Shown here: positions 55,238 to 63,506 of the stretch, piece by piece
Layout of the letters: every line of letters starts with the position of its first letter
Numbering within the stretch: the first letter of the stretch is position 1
Position numbers and translations under genes: made by a program
Assembly (NCBI RefSeq): GCF_006716305.1
Contig: NZ_VFOU01000002.1
Span: forward strand, 620,001-684,000
DNA length: 64,000 nt
Direction: 5' to 3'
Source: Enteractinococcus coprophilus
Lineage (GTDB): Bacteria; Actinomycetota; Actinomycetes; Actinomycetales; Micrococcaceae
The notes under the pieces: model-generated
Seen by the model: the letters and a program-made list of their open reading frames with translations, nothing else
What the model was told of the DNA's origin: nothing
Database searches by the model: none

Positions 55238-57268
55238 TTAAGCGGAAAGTCGCCTGAGACTTTCCATGACTTGGGTAGCCGACCGTGTTGCCCAGAAATT
55301 CGGCATAGAGGCTCGGAGAAATGTGCCGTAACCGGCAGTCGCCAATCGCGAGTCTAAAATGGCAACGACGCCACGATCCGATGTGGATCGGATAAGACGT
55401 CCCGCTCCTTGAGCCAGCCGAATGGCAGCGTGGCTGGCTGATACCGCCATGAATCCATTACCACCTCGTTGGCTGATATATCGAGCTCGTGCGGAGGCTA
55501 GCGGATCATCGGGGCGAGGAAATGGAATTCGGTCAATCGTTACCAACCGCAGAGTCTCGCCGGGTACGTCGACGCCTTGCCACAGCGTCAGTGTGCCAAA
55601 TAAACAGGCTCGTGGATCTTGAGTGAACTCATCAATGAGACCCGACAGCGTTGACTCGCCTTGAACCAAAATGTTGAGCTTTTCGCCGAAGCGTAGTCGC
55701 ATCTCGTCGGCGGCGGCCTTTGCGGCGCTACGTGAGGAGAACAAGCATAATGCTCCTCCATCTGAGGCGTCCAAAAGGTGTTCAAGCCGCTCATGGGATT
55801 GGGCCGAAGGTTGGGGCCCAGGCTTCGGCAGATCATCAGCCACATACAAGATGCCTTGTGTAGGGTAATCAAATGGACTACCCACATCGAGGGTCTTATA
55901 TTTCGCCCCACCATTGATCTTGAACCCTAAATCACCGGTAATAGCATCAAATTTTCCTCCGACGGTCAGGGTCGCAGAAGTCAGGATGGTCGTGGACTCA
56001 TCGAGCAGTTTGTCTCGAAACCTGCCAGCAATGGATAAAGGTGCCGCGTATAACAGCGGTGCTGAATGTGGGTCAGCCTCAACCCATCCTTTGCCTGGCT
56101 CAAAATGTGACGGGCGTGTCGCCCAAACGACCATGTCACCTTTCGGCTGTGCTCCAGCCGTGAGGAGTTGTTCGGTGGTTTCCAGTATTTCTGTTAACCG
56201 GTTTTTGACCAGTTGGCGGTTTGAGTCTTCGGTGTCGGTTCCCCCGCTGCCTTTGAGATCGCTGAGCATTTGGCGGGTTTCGTCCCTTACGCTTTCCAAG
56301 GCGGTGAGCTGGTGTTCGTTGAAGCCTTGGGAAAACCAGCCCGAAGGAGCTGAAGCAAAGGCGGCTTCCATGGAAACTGCAGCATCGGTTAGGTCAGTCG
56401 CCACGACAGATGCCTCTTGTCTGGCTTGTTTTGCTGCACTTCGAATCAAGGATGGGGACAGGTGCAAAGTGACTGCGGAGGTCACGCGGTCAATGAGTTC
56501 GTGGGCCTCGTCAATAATGATGGCATCAGCTTCGGGCATGATGTTGAGATCTTCGAATGCAGCGATAGCCAGCATCGCGTGATTGGTCACTACGATGTCA
56601 GCCTCGGCTGCAGCTTGACGAGCGAGTTCAGAGAAACACTCTTCTGCGAAGGGACACTTGCTCGCACCAATGCATTCGCGAGCCGAAACTGAAACCTGAC
56701 GCCATGCCTCATCGGTGACCCCAGGTTTCAAATCGTCGCGGTCTCCGGTGTCGGTTTCTTCGGCCCAGGAGCGCAGTCGCATGACTTCTTCACCAAGTTG
56801 AGATAGTGGTTGGCCAACCACGTCGGTGGCGGCCAACAAGCTGTCATCTTCGGACTCGATCGCTGCGCCACGGAGCTTGTGTTTACAGACGTAGTTGGCG
56901 CGCCCTTTCAATAAGGCCACGTCGATGCTGCGAGGCAGAGAAGCTTCAAGAGTATCCAGCAGGCGTGGGATGTCTCGATTGATGATCTGGCTCTGGAGCG
57001 CAAGAGTGGCCGTTGCTATGACCACTGGCGACTCACTGGCCAAGGTGTAGTCAATGGCCGGCACGAGATACGCCAGGGACTTACCAGTTCCGGTTCCAGC
57101 CTGTACGACCAGATGTGTGCCGGTCTCAAGTGCGTTAGCAACCTCGGTTGCCATGAGTTGTTGGCCTGGACGAGTTTGTCCACCGAGTGCAGCGACGGCA
57201 TCAGCCAGCCATTCGCTGACTTGCGTAGGGCTGGCTGAGGAAGTGGTTACCGGTTGATTACCGGACAT
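55238..57268 (-). CDS. DinG/XPD-like ATP-dependent DNA helicase
   Basis: This 676-residue superfamily 2 helicase shows Walker A VVQAGTGTGKSLAYLVPAID near residue 55, an Fe-S-type cysteine cluster (Cys in YVCKHKLRG, then RECIGASKCPFAEECF), the DEAH motif in ADAIIIDEAHELIDRV, and late motifs LFSSRSAAKA, LTLWQGVDVPGETL and AIRLAQGAGRLIRS. It unwinds DNA in repair/replication stress. It overlaps the hflX stop by 11 nt, so the two are coupled. Confidence 0.92.
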   Translation of the reverse strand: MSGNQPVTTSSASPTQVSEWLADAVAALGGQTRPGQQLMATEVANALETGTHLVVQAGTGTGKSLAYLVPAIDYTLASESPVVIATATLALQSQIINRDIPRLLDTLEASLPRSIDVALLKGRANYVCKHKLRGAAIESEDDSLLAATDVVGQPLSQLGEEVMRLRSWAEETDTGDRDDLKPGVTDEAWRQVSVSARECIGASKCPFAEECFSELARQAAAEADIVVTNHAMLAIAAFEDLNIMPEADAIIIDEAHELIDRVTSAVTLHLSPSLIRSAAKQARQEASVVATDLTDAAVSMEAAFASAPSGWFSQGFNEHQLTALESVRDETRQMLSDLKGSGGTDTEDSNRQLVKNRLTEILETTEQLLTAGAQPKGDMVVWATRPSHFEPGKGWVEADPHSAPLLYAAPLSIAGRFRDKLLDESTTILTSATLTVGGKFDAITGDLGFKINGGAKYKTLDVGSPFDYPTQGILYVADDLPKPGPQPSAQSHERLEHLLDASDGGALCLFSSRSAAKAAADEMRLRFGEKLNILVQGESTLSGLIDEFTQDPRACLFGTLTLWQGVDVPGETLRLVTIDRIPFPRPDDPLASARARYISQRGGNGFMAVSASHAAIRLAQGAGRLIRSTSDRGVVAILDSRLATAGYGTFLRASMPNFWATRSATQVMESLRRLSA

Positions 57269-58796
57269 AGCTTAAGTAGTGATCCTTATCCTCTGGATAC
57301 ACCAGCACGGTCAACGCGGTGCCTTCTGGCTCATAGGTTTCAGCCAGAATTTCGGTGTCATCCGAGTGTAGTCGGTTGACGACCTCACCATCGGTATATG
57401 GCACCAGTAGGTCAAGATGAATGCTGGGTCGTGGCAGTCCTTCTGCGATGGCTGCTTCGAGTTCTTTGAAGCCTTCCCCGGTAGCAGCCGACACGATGAC
57501 GGCGTTGGGATAACGACGTCGTAGCCGCGCTAGCACCATAGAATCTGCTGCATCGGCCTTGTTGAAGACGATGAGTTCTTGGATATCGGCGATATTCGTA
57601 TCTGAAAAGACCTGGTGGACTGCATCAATCTGAGCTTCTGGCTCGGGATGCGAAGCATCCACAACGTGCAGAATCATGTCTGCTTCATCGACCTCTTCCA
57701 ACGTGGATCGGAAGGCCTCAACTAGCTGGGTCGGCAACTGGCGGACGAAACCGACGGTATCGGACAACGTGTACGCTATGCCATCTGCGGTTTGGGCGGC
57801 CCGGACCGTTGGGTCGAGAGTAGCAAACAGTGCGTTTTCGACAAGCACGCCGGCTTTGGTCAGCCGATTGAGTATGGAAGACTTTCCGGCGTTGGTGTAT
57901 CCGGCAATCGCAACCGACGGGATTTGGTTGCGACGACGGCGAGCGCGTTTCGTTCGTCGAGCGCTTTCCATGTGCTTAATATCGCGGCGCAACTTTGCCA
58001 TCCGATCACGGATACGACGTCGGTCCAACTCAATTTTCGTTTCACCAGGACCACGCGAACCAATACCGGCACCGCCCGCAGCTTGGCCACCAGCCTGCCG
58101 GGACATCGATTCACCCCAACCCCGCAACCGTGGCAACAGATATTCCAGTTGGGCTAGTTCAACTTGAGCTTTGCCCTCTTTGGACTGTGCATGTTGTGCA
58201 AAAATATCGAGAATCAGCGCCGTGCGGTCAATGACTTTCACGCCGACCACGTCTTCTAACCCACGGCGTTGCGATGGGGCCAGTTCAGTATCAACAATGA
58301 CCGTATCAGCCCCTTGATCTTGAACAATATCTCGTAGTTGATGAGCTTTACCACGGCCAAGAAAAGTGGCCGGATCAGGGGCGTGACGACGTTGAATGAT
58401 CCCATCGAGTACCGTGGAGCCCGCCGTATGAGCTAACGCGGCAAGTTCTTGTAGAGAGTGTTCGGCTTCAGTGACAGAACCGTCTGTCCATAAGCCGGCG
58501 AGAACCACTTTTTCGAGGCGGAGCTTGCGATATTCGACTTCTGTGACGTCATCTAGCTCTGTTGACAAACCTTGCACGCGTCGCAGCGCGTGGCGCTGTT
58601 CCAAATCAAACTGGTCACCATCATATTCAGTGTGGTTTGACCCGCCGTCATCCAGCGCTTGGGCGCCGCTGGGCCGATAGTCCTCAACCGCACTAGTATG
58701 TGTAGCTTTCGCATCATCGGCGGACAAGATACGGCTGATGAGTGCTTTGATTTGCTCATCAGCCCGAGGATCGGAGGGCTCGTATTGGGTGACCAT
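57258..58796 (-). CDS. hflX: GTPase HflX
   Basis: This 512-residue ribosome-associated GTPase splits stalled or stressed 70S ribosomes. The N-terminal HflX domain contains LEYLLPRLRGWG and GSRGPGETKIELDRRRI. The G domain has G1 AGYTNAGKSSILNRL near residue 320, G3 LSDTVGFVRQLP and G4 VFNKAD. The ATG at 58796 is used; AAGGAG lies only 3 nt upstream, a tight spacing. It is the promoter-proximal gene of the hflX-dinG pair. Confidence 0.95.
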   Translation of the reverse strand: MVTQYEPSDPRADEQIKALISRILSADDAKATHTSAVEDYRPSGAQALDDGGSNHTEYDGDQFDLEQRHALRRVQGLSTELDDVTEVEYRKLRLEKVVLAGLWTDGSVTEAEHSLQELAALAHTAGSTVLDGIIQRRHAPDPATFLGRGKAHQLRDIVQDQGADTVIVDTELAPSQRRGLEDVVGVKVIDRTALILDIFAQHAQSKEGKAQVELAQLEYLLPRLRGWGESMSRQAGGQAAGGAGIGSRGPGETKIELDRRRIRDRMAKLRRDIKHMESARRTKRARRRRNQIPSVAIAGYTNAGKSSILNRLTKAGVLVENALFATLDPTVRAAQTADGIAYTLSDTVGFVRQLPTQLVEAFRSTLEEVDEADMILHVVDASHPEPEAQIDAVHQVFSDTNIADIQELIVFNKADAADSMVLARLRRRYPNAVIVSAATGEGFKELEAAIAEGLPRPSIHLDLLVPYTDGEVVNRLHSDDTEILAETYEPEGTALTVLVYPEDKDHYLSYVR

Positions 58797-59019
58797 TTTC
58801 TCCTTGTTCAGAGGCTTTTCCTTATGTTGTAGTATGTCACATTTGCTGTGATTAAGCCTGCGATTGCGGGCTTTCCTGTGAGGAAATCGCAAAGATTTTC
58901 TGTCAATAGCAGCTGTCTATGACAACATCGTGCCGGGGTAATGTATTCCAATTAACGCGTTTATGCTGCGGTAGCGTGCGGAGTCCGAAATCTTTGAAAC
59001 GTACTACACTACGAAGACG
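58797..59019. other. hflX / RsmC-like intergenic region
   Basis: These 223 nt separate divergent genes. A minus-strand TTGACA at 58900-58905 lacks a clear -10 partner at 17 nt. A weak hairpin (GCCTGC/GCGGGC) lies at about 58857-58872. The promoters of both genes must be here, but I cannot place them with confidence. Confidence 0.4.
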
Positions 59020-59640
59020 ATGAATGAGCATTATTTTTCTTCTACTCCCTCCGGCCCAGATCATCGGCGCGTTCTCGATGTCGAGCTTGCCGGACAAAAT
59101 GTTCAAGTGGAGACCTCAGGCAGTATTTTTTCTCCCGATGGGGTGGATCGAGGGACGCGTGTCCTGTTAAACGTCGTTCCTGCCCTTCCAGAATCTGGAG
59201 ATTTTCTGGATATTGGTTCAGGATGGGGTCCTATTGCGCTCACGATGGGGTTATTGTCTGCTCGGGCTCACATCACAGCATTAGAGGTCAACGACCGCGC
59301 CGCAATGTTAACTGCTGCCAATGCGTCGCGGTTAGGTCTGAAGAACATCACGGTCAAACATCCGGATGAGGTAACCGAAGACGCTACATTCGACGTCATC
59401 TGGTCAAACCCACCAATCCGGATCGGTAAAGCTGCTCTCCACGCTATTTTGACTCGTTGGTTACCGACGCTGACACCAGGTGGTCAAGCGTGGCTTGTGG
59501 TGGCCAAGAAACTTGGCGCCGATTCCTTAATGCGATGGATCCAGACCATGTTGGAGGCAAAAGCTCCCGGAGAATTCACGATCCGTCGTGCCGCCACAGA
59601 CAAAGGCTTTCGAGTGCTTCAAGTGGAACGCGCCTTATAG
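59020..59640 (+). CDS. RsmC-like class I methyltransferase
   Basis: This 206-residue SAM-dependent methyltransferase has the motif I segment FLDIGSGWGPIALTMGLL near residue 65 and the N-type active-site motif FDVIWSNPPIRIGKAALHA near 130, with GGQAWLVVAKKLGADSLM after it. The NPPIRIGK tetrapeptide context fits 16S rRNA guanine-N2 methyltransferases (RsmC type; G1207 equivalent, inferred). It is the only plus-strand gene between the hflX and recA blocks and overlaps the dapF-locus gene by 6 nt at their stops. Confidence 0.87.
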   Translation: MNEHYFSSTPSGPDHRRVLDVELAGQNVQVETSGSIFSPDGVDRGTRVLLNVVPALPESGDFLDIGSGWGPIALTMGLLSARAHITALEVNDRAAMLTAANASRLGLKNITVKHPDEVTEDATFDVIWSNPPIRIGKAALHAILTRWLPTLTPGGQAWLVVAKKLGADSLMRWIQTMLEAKAPGEFTIRRAATDKGFRVLQVERAL

Positions 59641-60543
59641 TCGTCCAAAGAACACGGTAGATAGTGCAGCGAACGTGGACACTCTACGATCTTCGTGTAA
59701 CTGCACAACAATATCGCCATGGAGCGTTGATACGTTCCAGATATGTGGTTGTGTTAGTCCCGCCCAAAGTTGAAAAGCAATGGTCGCAGCAGCTGCTGCC
59801 GACCCAAGCTCTAAGTTTCCGGGAACGGCCGGATGGTGTCGCAACGCCAGCTGACCCATCCCCTCGATCGTAAGCGGATCTTGTGGCACGACGAAATTCA
59901 CGCCAGTGGGTTCCCTGACCGATGGCTCAACCGATGGAGACTGAGTTAGGTCAATGCTTTCTAATTCGTCGAGTGACTCCACTGCGATCGTAATGTGGAG
60001 GCTTTGAGTTCGAATACTCAATCCCGGGCGTGGGTCCGTTAGCCCGGCGGCCATGACGAGGGCGTCGGATCCTGCTGCTATTGCGGTATCAGGTTCGGCG
60101 TATGACCATTGACCGATATCTACACCCACGTAGGTGGGGGTATAAACCGTGGTGATGATCCCGGTTGCGGCCTTGAAAACGTGATGAGACGTCTCGGAGT
60201 CCGGTATCCGTTGTAATGCAGCTAGGGCGTAAGTGGCAGCACGTGCTGCTTCTATTAGATCTATAGCCGGTGTTCCGTCACTCTTCCAGGCCTCGAGGTC
60301 TGACACTGGATACTGAGCCGATGGTGAGGCTGCGGTCATGAGTACAACGCCGACAGCACCGACTCCGGAAGAGCGGTTACATAACCAGGCTATATGTTCC
60401 GGCGTTAGGTTGGAGGTCTTTGTCGGTTCAGAAAAAACGATCCAGTCGCCTGTCGGGCCAGTAATTTTGACGAACGGGGCGTCAACCAGAGTTTGGCGTA
60501 GGCGGTGCTGGTGGGCCTGGGAGGTGGATTGCGGAGCCGTCAT
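59635..60543 (-). CDS. DapF-fold protein lacking both catalytic cysteines (pseudoenzyme)
   Basis: This 302-residue intact frame sits at the standard actinobacterial dapF position, downstream of miaA, and is recognisably diaminopimelate epimerase-like: NRSSGVGAVGVVL (canonical DRxxGxGADGV), PTGVNFVVPQDPLTIEGMG (canonical GTNVEFV), and the C-terminal FQLWAGLTQPHIWNV. Yet the two catalytic Cys regions are altered: SDGTPAIDLIEAARAA replaces the ADGS..EMCGNG type, and GNLELGSAAAAA replaces GETLSCGTGAC. The only Cys of the protein is C55, which is not one of these. GPTGDW replaces G.ENDF and SLHITI replaces GNPH. It cannot be a normal epimerase. Confidence 0.85.
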   Translation of the reverse strand: MTAPQSTSQAHQHRLRQTLVDAPFVKITGPTGDWIVFSEPTKTSNLTPEHIAWLCNRSSGVGAVGVVLMTAASPSAQYPVSDLEAWKSDGTPAIDLIEAARAATYALAALQRIPDSETSHHVFKAATGIITTVYTPTYVGVDIGQWSYAEPDTAIAAGSDALVMAAGLTDPRPGLSIRTQSLHITIAVESLDELESIDLTQSPSVEPSVREPTGVNFVVPQDPLTIEGMGQLALRHHPAVPGNLELGSAAAAATIAFQLWAGLTQPHIWNVSTLHGDIVVQLHEDRRVSTFAALSTVFFGRL

Positions 60544-60552
60544 ATCGTCAGC

Positions 60553-61470
60553 CTAGCTGGCTTTCACAAGGCTCAAGATATCTGCAAGCGCATGATCGGT
60601 TTGCGGATCAACCCAGTGAACGCGAGGATCGGCCTTAAACCATGTTTCTTGGCGTCGGGCAAACCGTCGGGTGGCGACAATTGTTTCATCGATAGCTTGT
60701 TGCTTACTGAGACTCCCCGCCAGGTAAGCCAGCATTTGTCGATAGCCTATGGCTCGATAGGCTGTGGGCGCTTGCTCCAGGCCGACAGTTCGTAAGTGTT
60801 GTACTTCGTCTAACCAGCCAGCATCTAGCATTCTGTAGACGCGCTGTTCAATGCGTTCGTGCAGTTTAGCGCGGTCAACTTTGAGGCCGATTTGGACCAC
60901 AGGAGGGATATGCGGATGATATTGACGCTTGGGCATGTAGGAGCTAAATGTGCGCCCAGTGAGTCGATGTACTTCAACCGCCCGGATAATCCGGCGCTCG
61001 TCCTGGAGCCGTTGAGCTGACTCCGGGTCAACGCGCTGGAGTTCATCGACAAGTGGTGTTAACCCCTCGTTTTCCACTTGCGCGGCCAGACATTGCCTCA
61101 GAGCCGGATCAGTTGGCGGAAATTCGAGGGTGTCGAGTGCTGCGCGAACGTACAATCCGGAACCGCCGGTCAATATAGGGACACGATTTCGGGATCTAAC
61201 CTCGGCGATGGTCGTTCGAGCCAGTGTCTGGAAAGTCGCCACACTGGCTTCGACCTCTAGATCATAAAGATCCAACAAGTGGTGTGTGATGCCCTGGCGT
61301 TCATCGACGCTGGCTTTGGCCGTTCCGATGTCCATACCGCGATAAAACTGCAGGGAATCGGCATTGATAATCTCCCCACCAACTGTCTTGGCCAACGCAA
61401 TCGCTAAGGCTGTCTTACCAGTCGCGGTAGCCCCGACGAAGGCTACAAGGGGTTGCTTAACGGGCGCCAA
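60553..61470 (-). CDS. miaA: tRNA dimethylallyltransferase
   Basis: This enzyme adds the isopentenyl group to A37 of UNN-reading tRNAs. The P-loop is [18 protein letters not shown] at about residue 10, with [35 protein letters not shown] and the C-terminal [16 protein letters not shown] 305-residue product starting at the TTG at 61470 matches the family length; the much longer in-frame extension to 61725 lies inside miaB. No strong ribosome binding site is visible. It overlaps miaB by 14 nt. Confidence 0.93.
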
Positions 61471-62968
61471 TGCGCAGACTTGGTAGTCCGAGATTGACGT
61501 TGCCTGCCGGCGCGTTGGAACCAGTGCCACAGGAATCCGCCTGGGCTCGATCCCAGGCATCTCCTGCTCGGGACCGCCGCAAGTGGTAGTGGGTCGGTTC
61601 CGTCGGATCGGCGATGAGGTGATAAGGATGTGCTTCAGTGATTGGCACTGTGACAAAATCTCCGGGGCGGGGAGTTTGAGCTCCTTGTGGGATACTGAAG
61701 TGCACAAGGCGGTTGTCTGGGGCACGACCCGTCAGGCGCCCGGTTTGCTCACCACGACTGCCAGCATTGTTCGTCACGAGCAGCTCTTGGCTGGTGCCAA
61801 CGAGTTTGGCTGACTCTTCAGCCGCTATACGATCCTGCAAGGCAACTAGTCGTTCAAAACGTTCTTGCACAACCTCTTTCGGAATCTGGTCTTCCATTTC
61901 CGCTGCGGGGGTTCCTTCTCGTGGAGAATATTGGAACGTGTAAGCCATTGCGAAGCGGGAGGCTTCGACAACGTCGAGAGTTTGTTGGAAATCCGCTTCG
62001 GTTTCGCCGGGGAAACCCACAATAATATCTGTAGTTACCGCGGCGTGTGGGATCCGTTCGCGTACCTTTTCGAGAATGCCCAAGAAGCGCTTGGAACGAT
62101 AGGACCTGCGCATAGCCTTCAAGATAGTATCCGATCCAGATTGCAACGGCATATGCAGTTGGGGCATCACATTAGGAGTCTCTGCCATGGCGTCGAGGAC
62201 ATCATCAGTAAAAGAGGCAGGGTGAGGACTTGTAAAACGGATCCGTTCTAGTCCATCGATTTCACCGGTGGCTCGCAACAACTTGGAAAAAGCTTGACGA
62301 TCTCGGAACTCTACACCGTAAGTGTTAACGTTCTGGCCCAATAGCGTGACTTCAACGGCTCCGTCATCTACTAGAGCTTGGACTTCAGCCAGGATGTCAC
62401 CGGGTCGTCGATCTTTTTCTTTTCCTCTTAAGGAGGGAACGATGCAGAACGTACAGGTATTATTACAACCCACGGAAATGGATACCCAGCCGGAATAACT
62501 GGATTCCCGTTTGGTGGGCAAAGTCGAAGGGAAAGTCTCTAAGGCTTCTAGAAGCTCTACTTGAGCTTCATTGTTATGGCGCGAGCGGTTCAATAGTACC
62601 GGCAGCGACCCGATGTTGTGCGTGCCAAAGACCACATCCACCCAAGGTGCACGCTTAACAATGGTGTCTTGATCTTTTTGTGCCAGACACCCTCCGACGG
62701 CGATTTGCATACCAGGGTAGCCATCTTTGATGACCTTAAGATTTCCTAGATGACCATAGAGTCGGTTGGCTGCGTTCTCTCGAACTGCGCAAGTATTAAA
62801 GACCACGAGATCGGGAGTCGCGTCTCCATCTGCTGGAATATAACCATTGATTTCTAATAACCCAGAAATGCGTTCTGAATCGTGCACATTCATTTGGCAC
62901 CCGAACGTGCGAATTTCATACGAGCGTGGTGTGGCGATGTCGGCTACGGCTTCAGTCAAGATGTTCAT
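61457..62968 (-). CDS. miaB: tRNA-2-methylthio-N6-dimethylallyladenosine synthase
   Basis: This 503-residue radical-SAM methylthiotransferase adds the 2-methylthio group to the nucleotide prepared by MiaA. It has the N-terminal UPF0004 domain with cysteines in [33 protein letters not shown] and VGGCLAQ, the radical-SAM cluster [19 protein letters not shown] near residue 170 and a C-terminal TRAM domain. It starts 1 nt after the recX stop. Confidence 0.96.
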
Positions 62969-62969
62969 T

Positions 62970-63506
62970 TCATTCGTCTATGGAGTCAAGGTCGTCAGCA
63001 TCCATCGCAGTAGTAACCACTTGGAATGCTAGGCCTGGTGAATACCCTTTTCTGGAGAGCATTCCGACCAGGCGTCGCACTATTCTATCGCGTTGTTGGC
63101 GAGACTCAGGATCTGTTGATGAAGGCACACTCATTCGAGATAATCTGCGCAAAACCAAGTCGTGTGCAGCGCATTGTTCATCGTCGTCTGAGACCTGCTC
63201 AAGAGCGTTTGCTGCATCTTCATCTGTAATTCCTCGTTGACGCAGTTCCGTACTCAAAGCTCGACGAGCTAGGCCTTTAGACCGATGCCGCGAACGAACC
63301 CAACTTTCAGCGAATGCGCTATCATCGATGAGTTCGACTTCCTCGAAACGGTCCAGCACCTCTTCAATCACATTGTCAGCTATCTCGCGGTCCCGCAGCT
63401 TTTCGGCGAGTTGATGCCGAGTCTTCGGGGCAGCTGAGAGCTGGCGCAACACGATGTTGCGGGCGGTTTGGTGCTGGTCCGCTTCGACGTCGTCTTGGTC
63501 ACTCAT
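62970..63506 (-). CDS. recX: RecA regulatory protein RecX
   Basis: This 178-residue protein modulates RecA filaments. It consists of three-helix repeats, with [40 protein letters not shown] and [17 protein letters not shown] as clear RecX motifs. It lies 5 nt downstream of recA and 1 nt from miaB, the conserved actinobacterial order. Confidence 0.93.

Follow-up and report, generated by a model that had tools for sequence, protein, structure and literature searches.

A DapF homologue without catalytic cysteines, probably retained as a pseudoenzyme, in Enteractinococcus coprophilus and other Micrococcaceae

Diaminopimelate (DAP) epimerase, DapF, is considered a target for antibacterials (PMC5296763), and studies of the Escherichia coli protein have described a side role in RNA decay. 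The double mutant DapF(C73A,C217A) was reported to still bind and stimulate the RNA pyrophosphohydrolase RppH (PMC4227774), and another mutant, devoid of enzyme activity and dimerisation, was reported to stimulate RppH too (PMC7144940). Glp has been described as a repurposed MoeA of Actinobacteria that is linked to cell division (PMC11733289). Among the literature matches listed, no title or abstract opening reported a DapF pseudoenzyme, cysteine loss or moonlighting in DapF, or meso-DAP dehydrogenase (Ddh) in combination with the absence of DapD or DapF.

We analysed a 64,000-nucleotide stretch of the Enteractinococcus coprophilus genome (the window; contig NZ_VFOU01000002.1, positions 620,001 to 684,000), in which the dapF position is occupied by a single open reading frame of 302 codons that starts with ATG, ends with TAA and contains no stop in between (Table 1). 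A first-pass annotation made from the sequence alone had described this frame as an intact, full-length DapF homologue at the dapF locus that has lost both catalytic cysteines, and the description was confirmed. The homology is weak yet real: the protein scored 31.3 bits against TIGR00652 (residues 24-226, E 1.3e-7; cut-off 114.65) and 27.2 bits against PF01678 (cut-off 34.7), and the gene order MiaB-MiaA-DapF-methyltransferase-HflX-DinG was the same in all 41 loci read, which come from 31 of the sample's 32 genera (RecX in 39 loci); this supports orthology of the window gene with dapF. Seven loci with named relatives of the protein, 49-68% identical to it when aligned, belong to Enteractinococcus helveticum, Yaniella halotolerans and other Enteractinococcus, Yaniella and Micrococcaceae. 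The dapF start lies 9 bases past the miaA stop. At the other end of miaA, the longest MiaA frame shares 269 bases (61457-61725) with the end of MiaB; its true start is probably further downstream, as the TIGR00174 match begins only at residue 94. Overlap with a neighbouring gene was considered as a cause of the open dapF frame and rejected, the overlap with the methyltransferase-like gene being too short.

Table 1. Features at and around the dapF locus, in window coordinates.
Feature	Coordinates	Strand	Basis
DapF homologue without catalytic cysteines, 302 aa, probable pseudoenzyme	59635..60543	-	Frame, weak family scores, alignment, structural model
C55 codon, non-catalytic Cys	60379..60381	-	Cys also in 26 of 28 canonical DapFs
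Residue 96 codon (Leu)	60256..60258	-	Column of the first catalytic Cys (EMCGNG); window reads AIDLIEAA
Residue 246 codon (Leu)	59806..59808	-	Column of the second catalytic Cys (GETLSCGTGAC); window reads GNLELGSAAAAA
Non-catalytic block, residues 146-176, W-x7-A-x5-D-x2-V-x3-G-x4-RP-x-L	60016..60108	-	Alignment
MiaA (tRNA dimethylallyltransferase), directly upstream of dapF	60553..61725 (first possible start)	-	TIGR00174, 262 bits, residues 94-375
MiaB (tRNA methylthiotransferase)	61457..62968	-	TIGR01574, 455 bits
Small methyltransferase-like gene, presumably RsmC, convergent, 6-base overlap with the dapF stop	59020..59640	+	PrmC match, 44.8 bits, below cut-off
HflX GTPase	57258..58892	-	TIGR03156, 440 bits
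DinG/YoaA-type helicase	55238..57268	-	NF053712, 476 bits, below cut-off 680
RecX	62970..63506	-	NF001061, 180 bits, below cut-off 264

The active site was compared with a reference alignment of 28 canonical DapFs, each from a different genus; of the 29 other genera in the family sample only g29 was left out. In what follows g1 denotes the GTDB genus of the window (Enteractinococcus/Yaniella), and g2, g11, g12 and g17 are other Micrococcaceae genera. All 28 canonical rows have both catalytic cysteines, and the eight g1 rows have neither; the window protein carries L96 and L246 in these columns, and C55 is its sole cysteine. Both columns were also changed in every one of the 13 aligned dead Micrococcaceae rows (g1, g12 and g17). 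Sixteen columns were taken to be active-site or signature positions of DapF, and all sixteen were invariant in the 28 canonical proteins. Across the 14 non-cysteine columns of this set, g1 retained the NGVR Arg (8/8 rows) and the GNPH His (7/8), and each remaining column was changed in at least six of the eight rows, with a few residues kept in one or two. Most of the signature residues have been lost. Genus g12 kept the NGVR Arg and the later Glu of HERGVGET (4/4 each), and g17 retained four of the 14. By either mark of membership in the DAP epimerase family, possession of the two catalytic cysteines or scores over the TIGR00652 and PF01678 cut-offs, the window protein falls outside the enzyme.

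An AlphaFold2 model of the window protein was of low confidence (mean pLDDT 60.7, pTM 0.67; residues 147-227 under 50), and the best solved matches to this low-confidence model in a Foldseek search were DapFs, led by 6d13_A (E 3.7e-11), with TM-scores of 0.48-0.62. A search of viral contigs for additional DapFs with which to deepen the model yielded one partial hit, which was left out. Helices in the model begin at residues 97 and 246, at or beside the former cysteine positions. The column of the CGNG Asn (window residue 98), which we take to be part of the DapF substrate site, has turned acidic in all dead Micrococcaceae rows: Glu in 8/8 g1 rows, Glu in g17 and Asp in 4/4 g12 rows. An acid at the helix start next to the former cysteine would be expected to make the helix more stable and to repel the carboxylate group of the substrate.

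The dead state extends well beyond the window. In a family sample of 295 genomes drawn from a larger group, in which the pathway searches covered DapF and Ddh throughout and LysA and DapD in the genomes counted below, a dapF homologue was found in nine of nine g1 genomes. Eight of these, the window's included, have stop-free, cysteine-dead frames of 301-303 codons, and in the ninth (G155, 71% complete) dapF is split across two contigs by contig ends. Dead DapFs occupy the dapF locus in 14 genomes of three genera (nine g1, four g12, one g17), with the gene order read in 13 of the 14. The frames of g12 (4/4) measure 315-326 codons and that of g17 395 codons, stop to stop; they align to DapF with neither cysteine, and a Pfam scan of one g17 and one g12 protein gave no DapF match. 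Among the 279 genomes with an over-cut-off DapF, 33 proteins covering all 29 other genera were inspected, and both cysteines were present in 33/33. The comparison with close relatives that the first-pass annotation had proposed as a check thus left its reading standing: the substitutions recur in the relatives, and the frames are full length in all but the genome cut by contig ends.

Catalysis was probably lost at least twice in the Micrococcaceae, judging from a species tree. A quick species tree built from five neighbour genes (MiaA left out; 2031 columns) joined g17 to g1 (SH-aLRT 100) and placed g2, which has an intact DapF, next to this pair (support 99), and it joined g12 to g11, also with an intact DapF, far from g1 (SH-aLRT 100). 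With g12 as sister to g11, vertical descent requires two losses or more. A single origin of the dead DapFs, spread by gene replacement or transfer, is less likely than two losses. In its favour, the 13 dead rows form one group in the DapF gene tree (97/99), but the program warned of long branches, and constrained trees with g11 and g2 were not rejected. With the other dead groups removed, a g12+g11 or a g1+g2 constraint beat the free quick search (p-AU 0.78 and 0.84), and a free DapF tree in which g1 was the only dead group placed g1 beside g2, g4, g13 and g15 (97). In the full DapF set the g12+g11 constraint again gave a better likelihood (p-AU 0.59), and the g1+g17+g2 constraint was 9.9 log units worse, a difference that did not lead to rejection (p-AU 0.19).

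The first-pass annotation had also reasoned that a cell with such a DapF needs another route to meso-DAP, and one is encoded: a meso-DAP dehydrogenase gene (ddh) scored 430 bits in the window genome (cut-off 180.6). No second DapF was detected there with PF01678 at E 1e-3, and a TIGR00652 search of the genome gave one match (E 2.7e-7), of a strength like that of the window gene itself (1.3e-7). Across the family, ddh was over cut-off in 61/295 genomes and DapF (TIGR00652) in 279/295. The 16 genomes without an over-cut-off DapF comprise the nine g1, four g12 and one g17 genomes together with G129 and G148, in which even a profile combining dead and intact DapFs found zero matches. Both ddh and LysA were over cut-off in 13 of the 14 dead-DapF genomes, the miss in each case being the incomplete G155. 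DapD was over cut-off in 0/14 dead-DapF genomes versus 13/13 comparison genomes. Of these 13, seven carry a ddh above its cut-off as well (G007, G022, G023, G024, G034, G119 and G124, the last with a stop in the gene). Altogether 47 family genomes with ddh keep an over-cut-off DapF (61 less 13 and G148), among them G124 and G229 with a broken ddh, so that ddh alone does not kill DapF. In this sample the dead state coincides with the absence of DapD, and with Ddh and LysA encoded and DapD not found, the epimerase step is predicted to be bypassed in the genus of the window.

Three further genomes bear on this pathway. In a mirror case, ddh is broken by a stop codon (TGA and TAG) in two Micrococcaceae genomes, G124 (C1:2058471-2059413) and G229 (C12:33262-34237), which keep DapF matches at E 2.1e-59 and 2.4e-51. 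Neither DapF nor an over-cut-off ddh was found in G129 (genus g26; 97% complete, 2 contigs), which may be a lysine auxotroph, may have a missing stretch, or may use another route.

We consider it probable that the window gene encodes a selected, catalytically dead DapF, that is, a pseudoenzyme with a non-catalytic role. The two sequence marks of a pseudoenzyme, loss of the catalytic residues and a frame under purifying selection, are both found. The first-pass annotation had left the choice between such a pseudoenzyme and a slowly decaying gene open; the former gained support and simple decay was disfavoured. Under slow decay, Ddh would have made DapF redundant and the gene would be drifting, its frame surviving only because deletion is pending. 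The dead genes do evolve faster than their neighbours: the median DapF/DinG distance ratio is 3.1 in g1 and 2.9 in g12 versus 1.1 among canonical pairs, which indicates that constraint on dead dapF is relaxed nonetheless. Purifying selection still acts on the Micrococcaceae frames. NG86 dN/dS ratios were 0.11, 0.13, 0.09 and 0.14 in g1 (the first at a dS of 2.0, near saturation; six of 28 pairs were tried, of which four were usable and two saturated) and 0.13, 0.22, 0.21 and 0.16 in g12 (four of six pairs); in both sets the pairs share branches. For the same eight pairs the methyltransferase-like gene gave 0.08-0.18 and MiaB, HflX and DinG 0.02-0.07. A neutral simulation of the window gene, with substitutions only and indels ignored, left stop-free frames in 15/2000 runs at 0.2, 1/2000 at 0.4 and 0/2000 at 0.8 substitutions per site. 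Against decay stand also the frames themselves, open in eight of nine g1 genomes and in all four g12 genomes, the persistence of dapF while DapD of the same pathway was not found in 14/14 genomes, and the recurrence of the same dead state in two more genera. We regard slow decay as an unlikely explanation for these Micrococcaceae genes.

The decay reading also draws support from outside the Micrococcaceae, in family f3, where DapF runs from half-dead through truncated to not found. An order sample of 396 genomes had TIGR00652 over cut-off in 358 and no match in 29, and 27 genomes were followed (20 of the 29 unmatched, five chosen f3 genomes with weak matches, G129 and G148). The combined dead and intact profile matched six of the 27, all in f3, and in 6/6 of these miaA lies in the same short stretch and ddh is over cut-off. 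Both catalytic cysteines are absent from G435, G577 and G312, and G483 has a shorter, cysteine-dead form. The six pairs formed by four dead or half-dead f3 DapFs gave dN/dS ratios of 0.25-0.55, so selection on DapF in f3 appears nearer to decay. G343 and G448, from the genus that holds four of the six cases, have no ddh and better-scoring DapFs, and G648 has ddh and a well-scoring DapF together. In three g34 genomes of this family (G296, G409 and G513) ddh is present and no DapF was found by either profile, a loss and not a dead copy. These ratios, a truncated remnant in G568 and the g34 genomes indicate that dapF is dispensable in f3, and the absence of a detectable DapF in g34 limits the claim of a kept non-catalytic role.

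Individual f3 genomes illustrate the range of states. G461 (locus L127) is half-dead, with the first cysteine kept and the second replaced by Tyr, and a relative that is 91% identical (L129) lacks both, making the G461 protein a possible intermediate step. G568 (L132) holds a 178-codon N-terminal DapF remnant adjoining miaA, with ddh elsewhere in the genome. The G435 protein (L128) has no catalytic cysteine and still scores 87 bits against PF01678, over the cut-off, so that an annotation relying on family scores would list it as DapF; an over-cut-off score is thus no proof of intact cysteines. Neither DapF nor ddh was found in G328, G370, G383 and G493 (g58/g75; 99-100% complete).

The positions kept in the dead proteins are probably mostly of a structural kind. 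Near-invariance in canonical DapF, set at 25 or more of the 28 rows, applies to 128 columns, of which g1 keeps 46, g17 46 and g12 52. The set kept by both g1 and g12 numbers 31, compared with 18.7 expected (p 4.4e-6), and 24 are kept by all three lineages. Gly, Pro, Trp, Ala, Val or Leu account for 27 of these 31, which are likely fold positions, and fold stability by itself could explain the retention. One block in the middle of the protein (residues 146-176; Table 1) has eight near-invariant positions, W146 to L175, among them Asp160 and Arg172, and the consensus of each of the three dead Micrococcaceae lineages preserves all eight. The block, which falls in a poorly modelled region of the AlphaFold2 structure, may be a contact surface or simply the domain linker.

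A second alternative is that the DapF fold now serves a different reaction with a new set of catalytic residues, as in PhzF. Proteins of the PhzF family are known to catalyse their reactions without cysteines and are not known to carry the Cys pair. Several polar residues are invariant in g1, for example T118-S119-H120, D142 and E98, and the PhzF-family entries 1ym5 and 1s7j were among the weaker matches to the low-confidence structural model. The confidence of that model tells against giving these matches much weight, as do the absence of any PhzF family match in Pfam or NCBIfam and the absence of the T-S-H motif from the g17 and g12 sequences; no new active site common to the dead lineages was seen in the alignment of g1, g17 and g12. 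We hold a new enzyme to be quite improbable. Far less credible still is a DAP epimerase that works without cysteines. The best structural matches of the low-confidence model are DapFs, but both cysteine columns are changed throughout the dead Micrococcaceae rows, the E. coli double cysteine mutant was reported to be inactive (PMC4227774), and, with DapD not found, L,L-DAP should not come from the succinylase branch. Sequencing or assembly error, for which no sign was found, can be dismissed for practical purposes, as the same state recurs in separate g1 assemblies and in five genomes of two other genera.

If the window protein is a selected pseudoenzyme, its history might be as follows. Ddh would supply meso-DAP and production of L,L-DAP would have ceased, while selection would preserve the folded protein because it serves as a scaffold or binding partner and not as a catalyst. 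This role would probably predate the loss of catalysis and have been present already in canonical actinobacterial DapF, since dead full-length forms apparently arose at least twice within the Micrococcaceae and anew in another family. The most concrete candidate for a partner may be one linked to RNA or translation, a suggestion that comes from the position of the gene between miaB-miaA and hflX in 41/41 loci and from the E. coli DapF-RppH precedent. The neighbourhood of tRNA-modification genes and HflX fits an RNA-linked role, though it is no proof of one. We offer more tentatively, at somewhat short of even chances, the broader proposal that canonical actinobacterial DapF has a more ancient role apart from catalysis, possibly connected with the neighbouring tRNA-modification and ribosome genes, and that this role is kept once Ddh frees the epimerase site.

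Should that proposal be true, the repeated dead DapFs would be natural separation-of-function mutants that expose a non-catalytic role. Lineages that lack the chemistry and DapD but keep the protein offer a direct test for a second DapF function outside E. coli. In them a change of pathway, with Ddh replacing the succinylase branch, appears to have ended in a selected pseudoenzyme and not in simple gene loss, in contrast to other Ddh lineages in which dapF is truncated or not found.

Set beside known systems, the window protein resembles DapF (TIGR00652, PF01678) in locus, length, best structural matches and retained Gly, Pro and Trp residues, and differs from it in lacking the catalytic cysteines, in having most signatures changed and in scoring below both cut-offs. 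With PhzF it has in common a related fold, as suggested by the weaker structural matches, without a family match in Pfam or NCBIfam. The reported stimulation of RppH offers a precedent for a DapF activity that is independent of the cysteines and of epimerase activity; E. coli DapF is also an active epimerase with RppH as its partner, whereas the window protein is dead by sequence. Unlike Glp, the window protein has no second DapF beside it in the genome (PF01678), and the gene at the ancestral locus has itself lost catalysis; like Glp, as described for MoeA, it is a candidate for a metabolic fold put to non-metabolic use.
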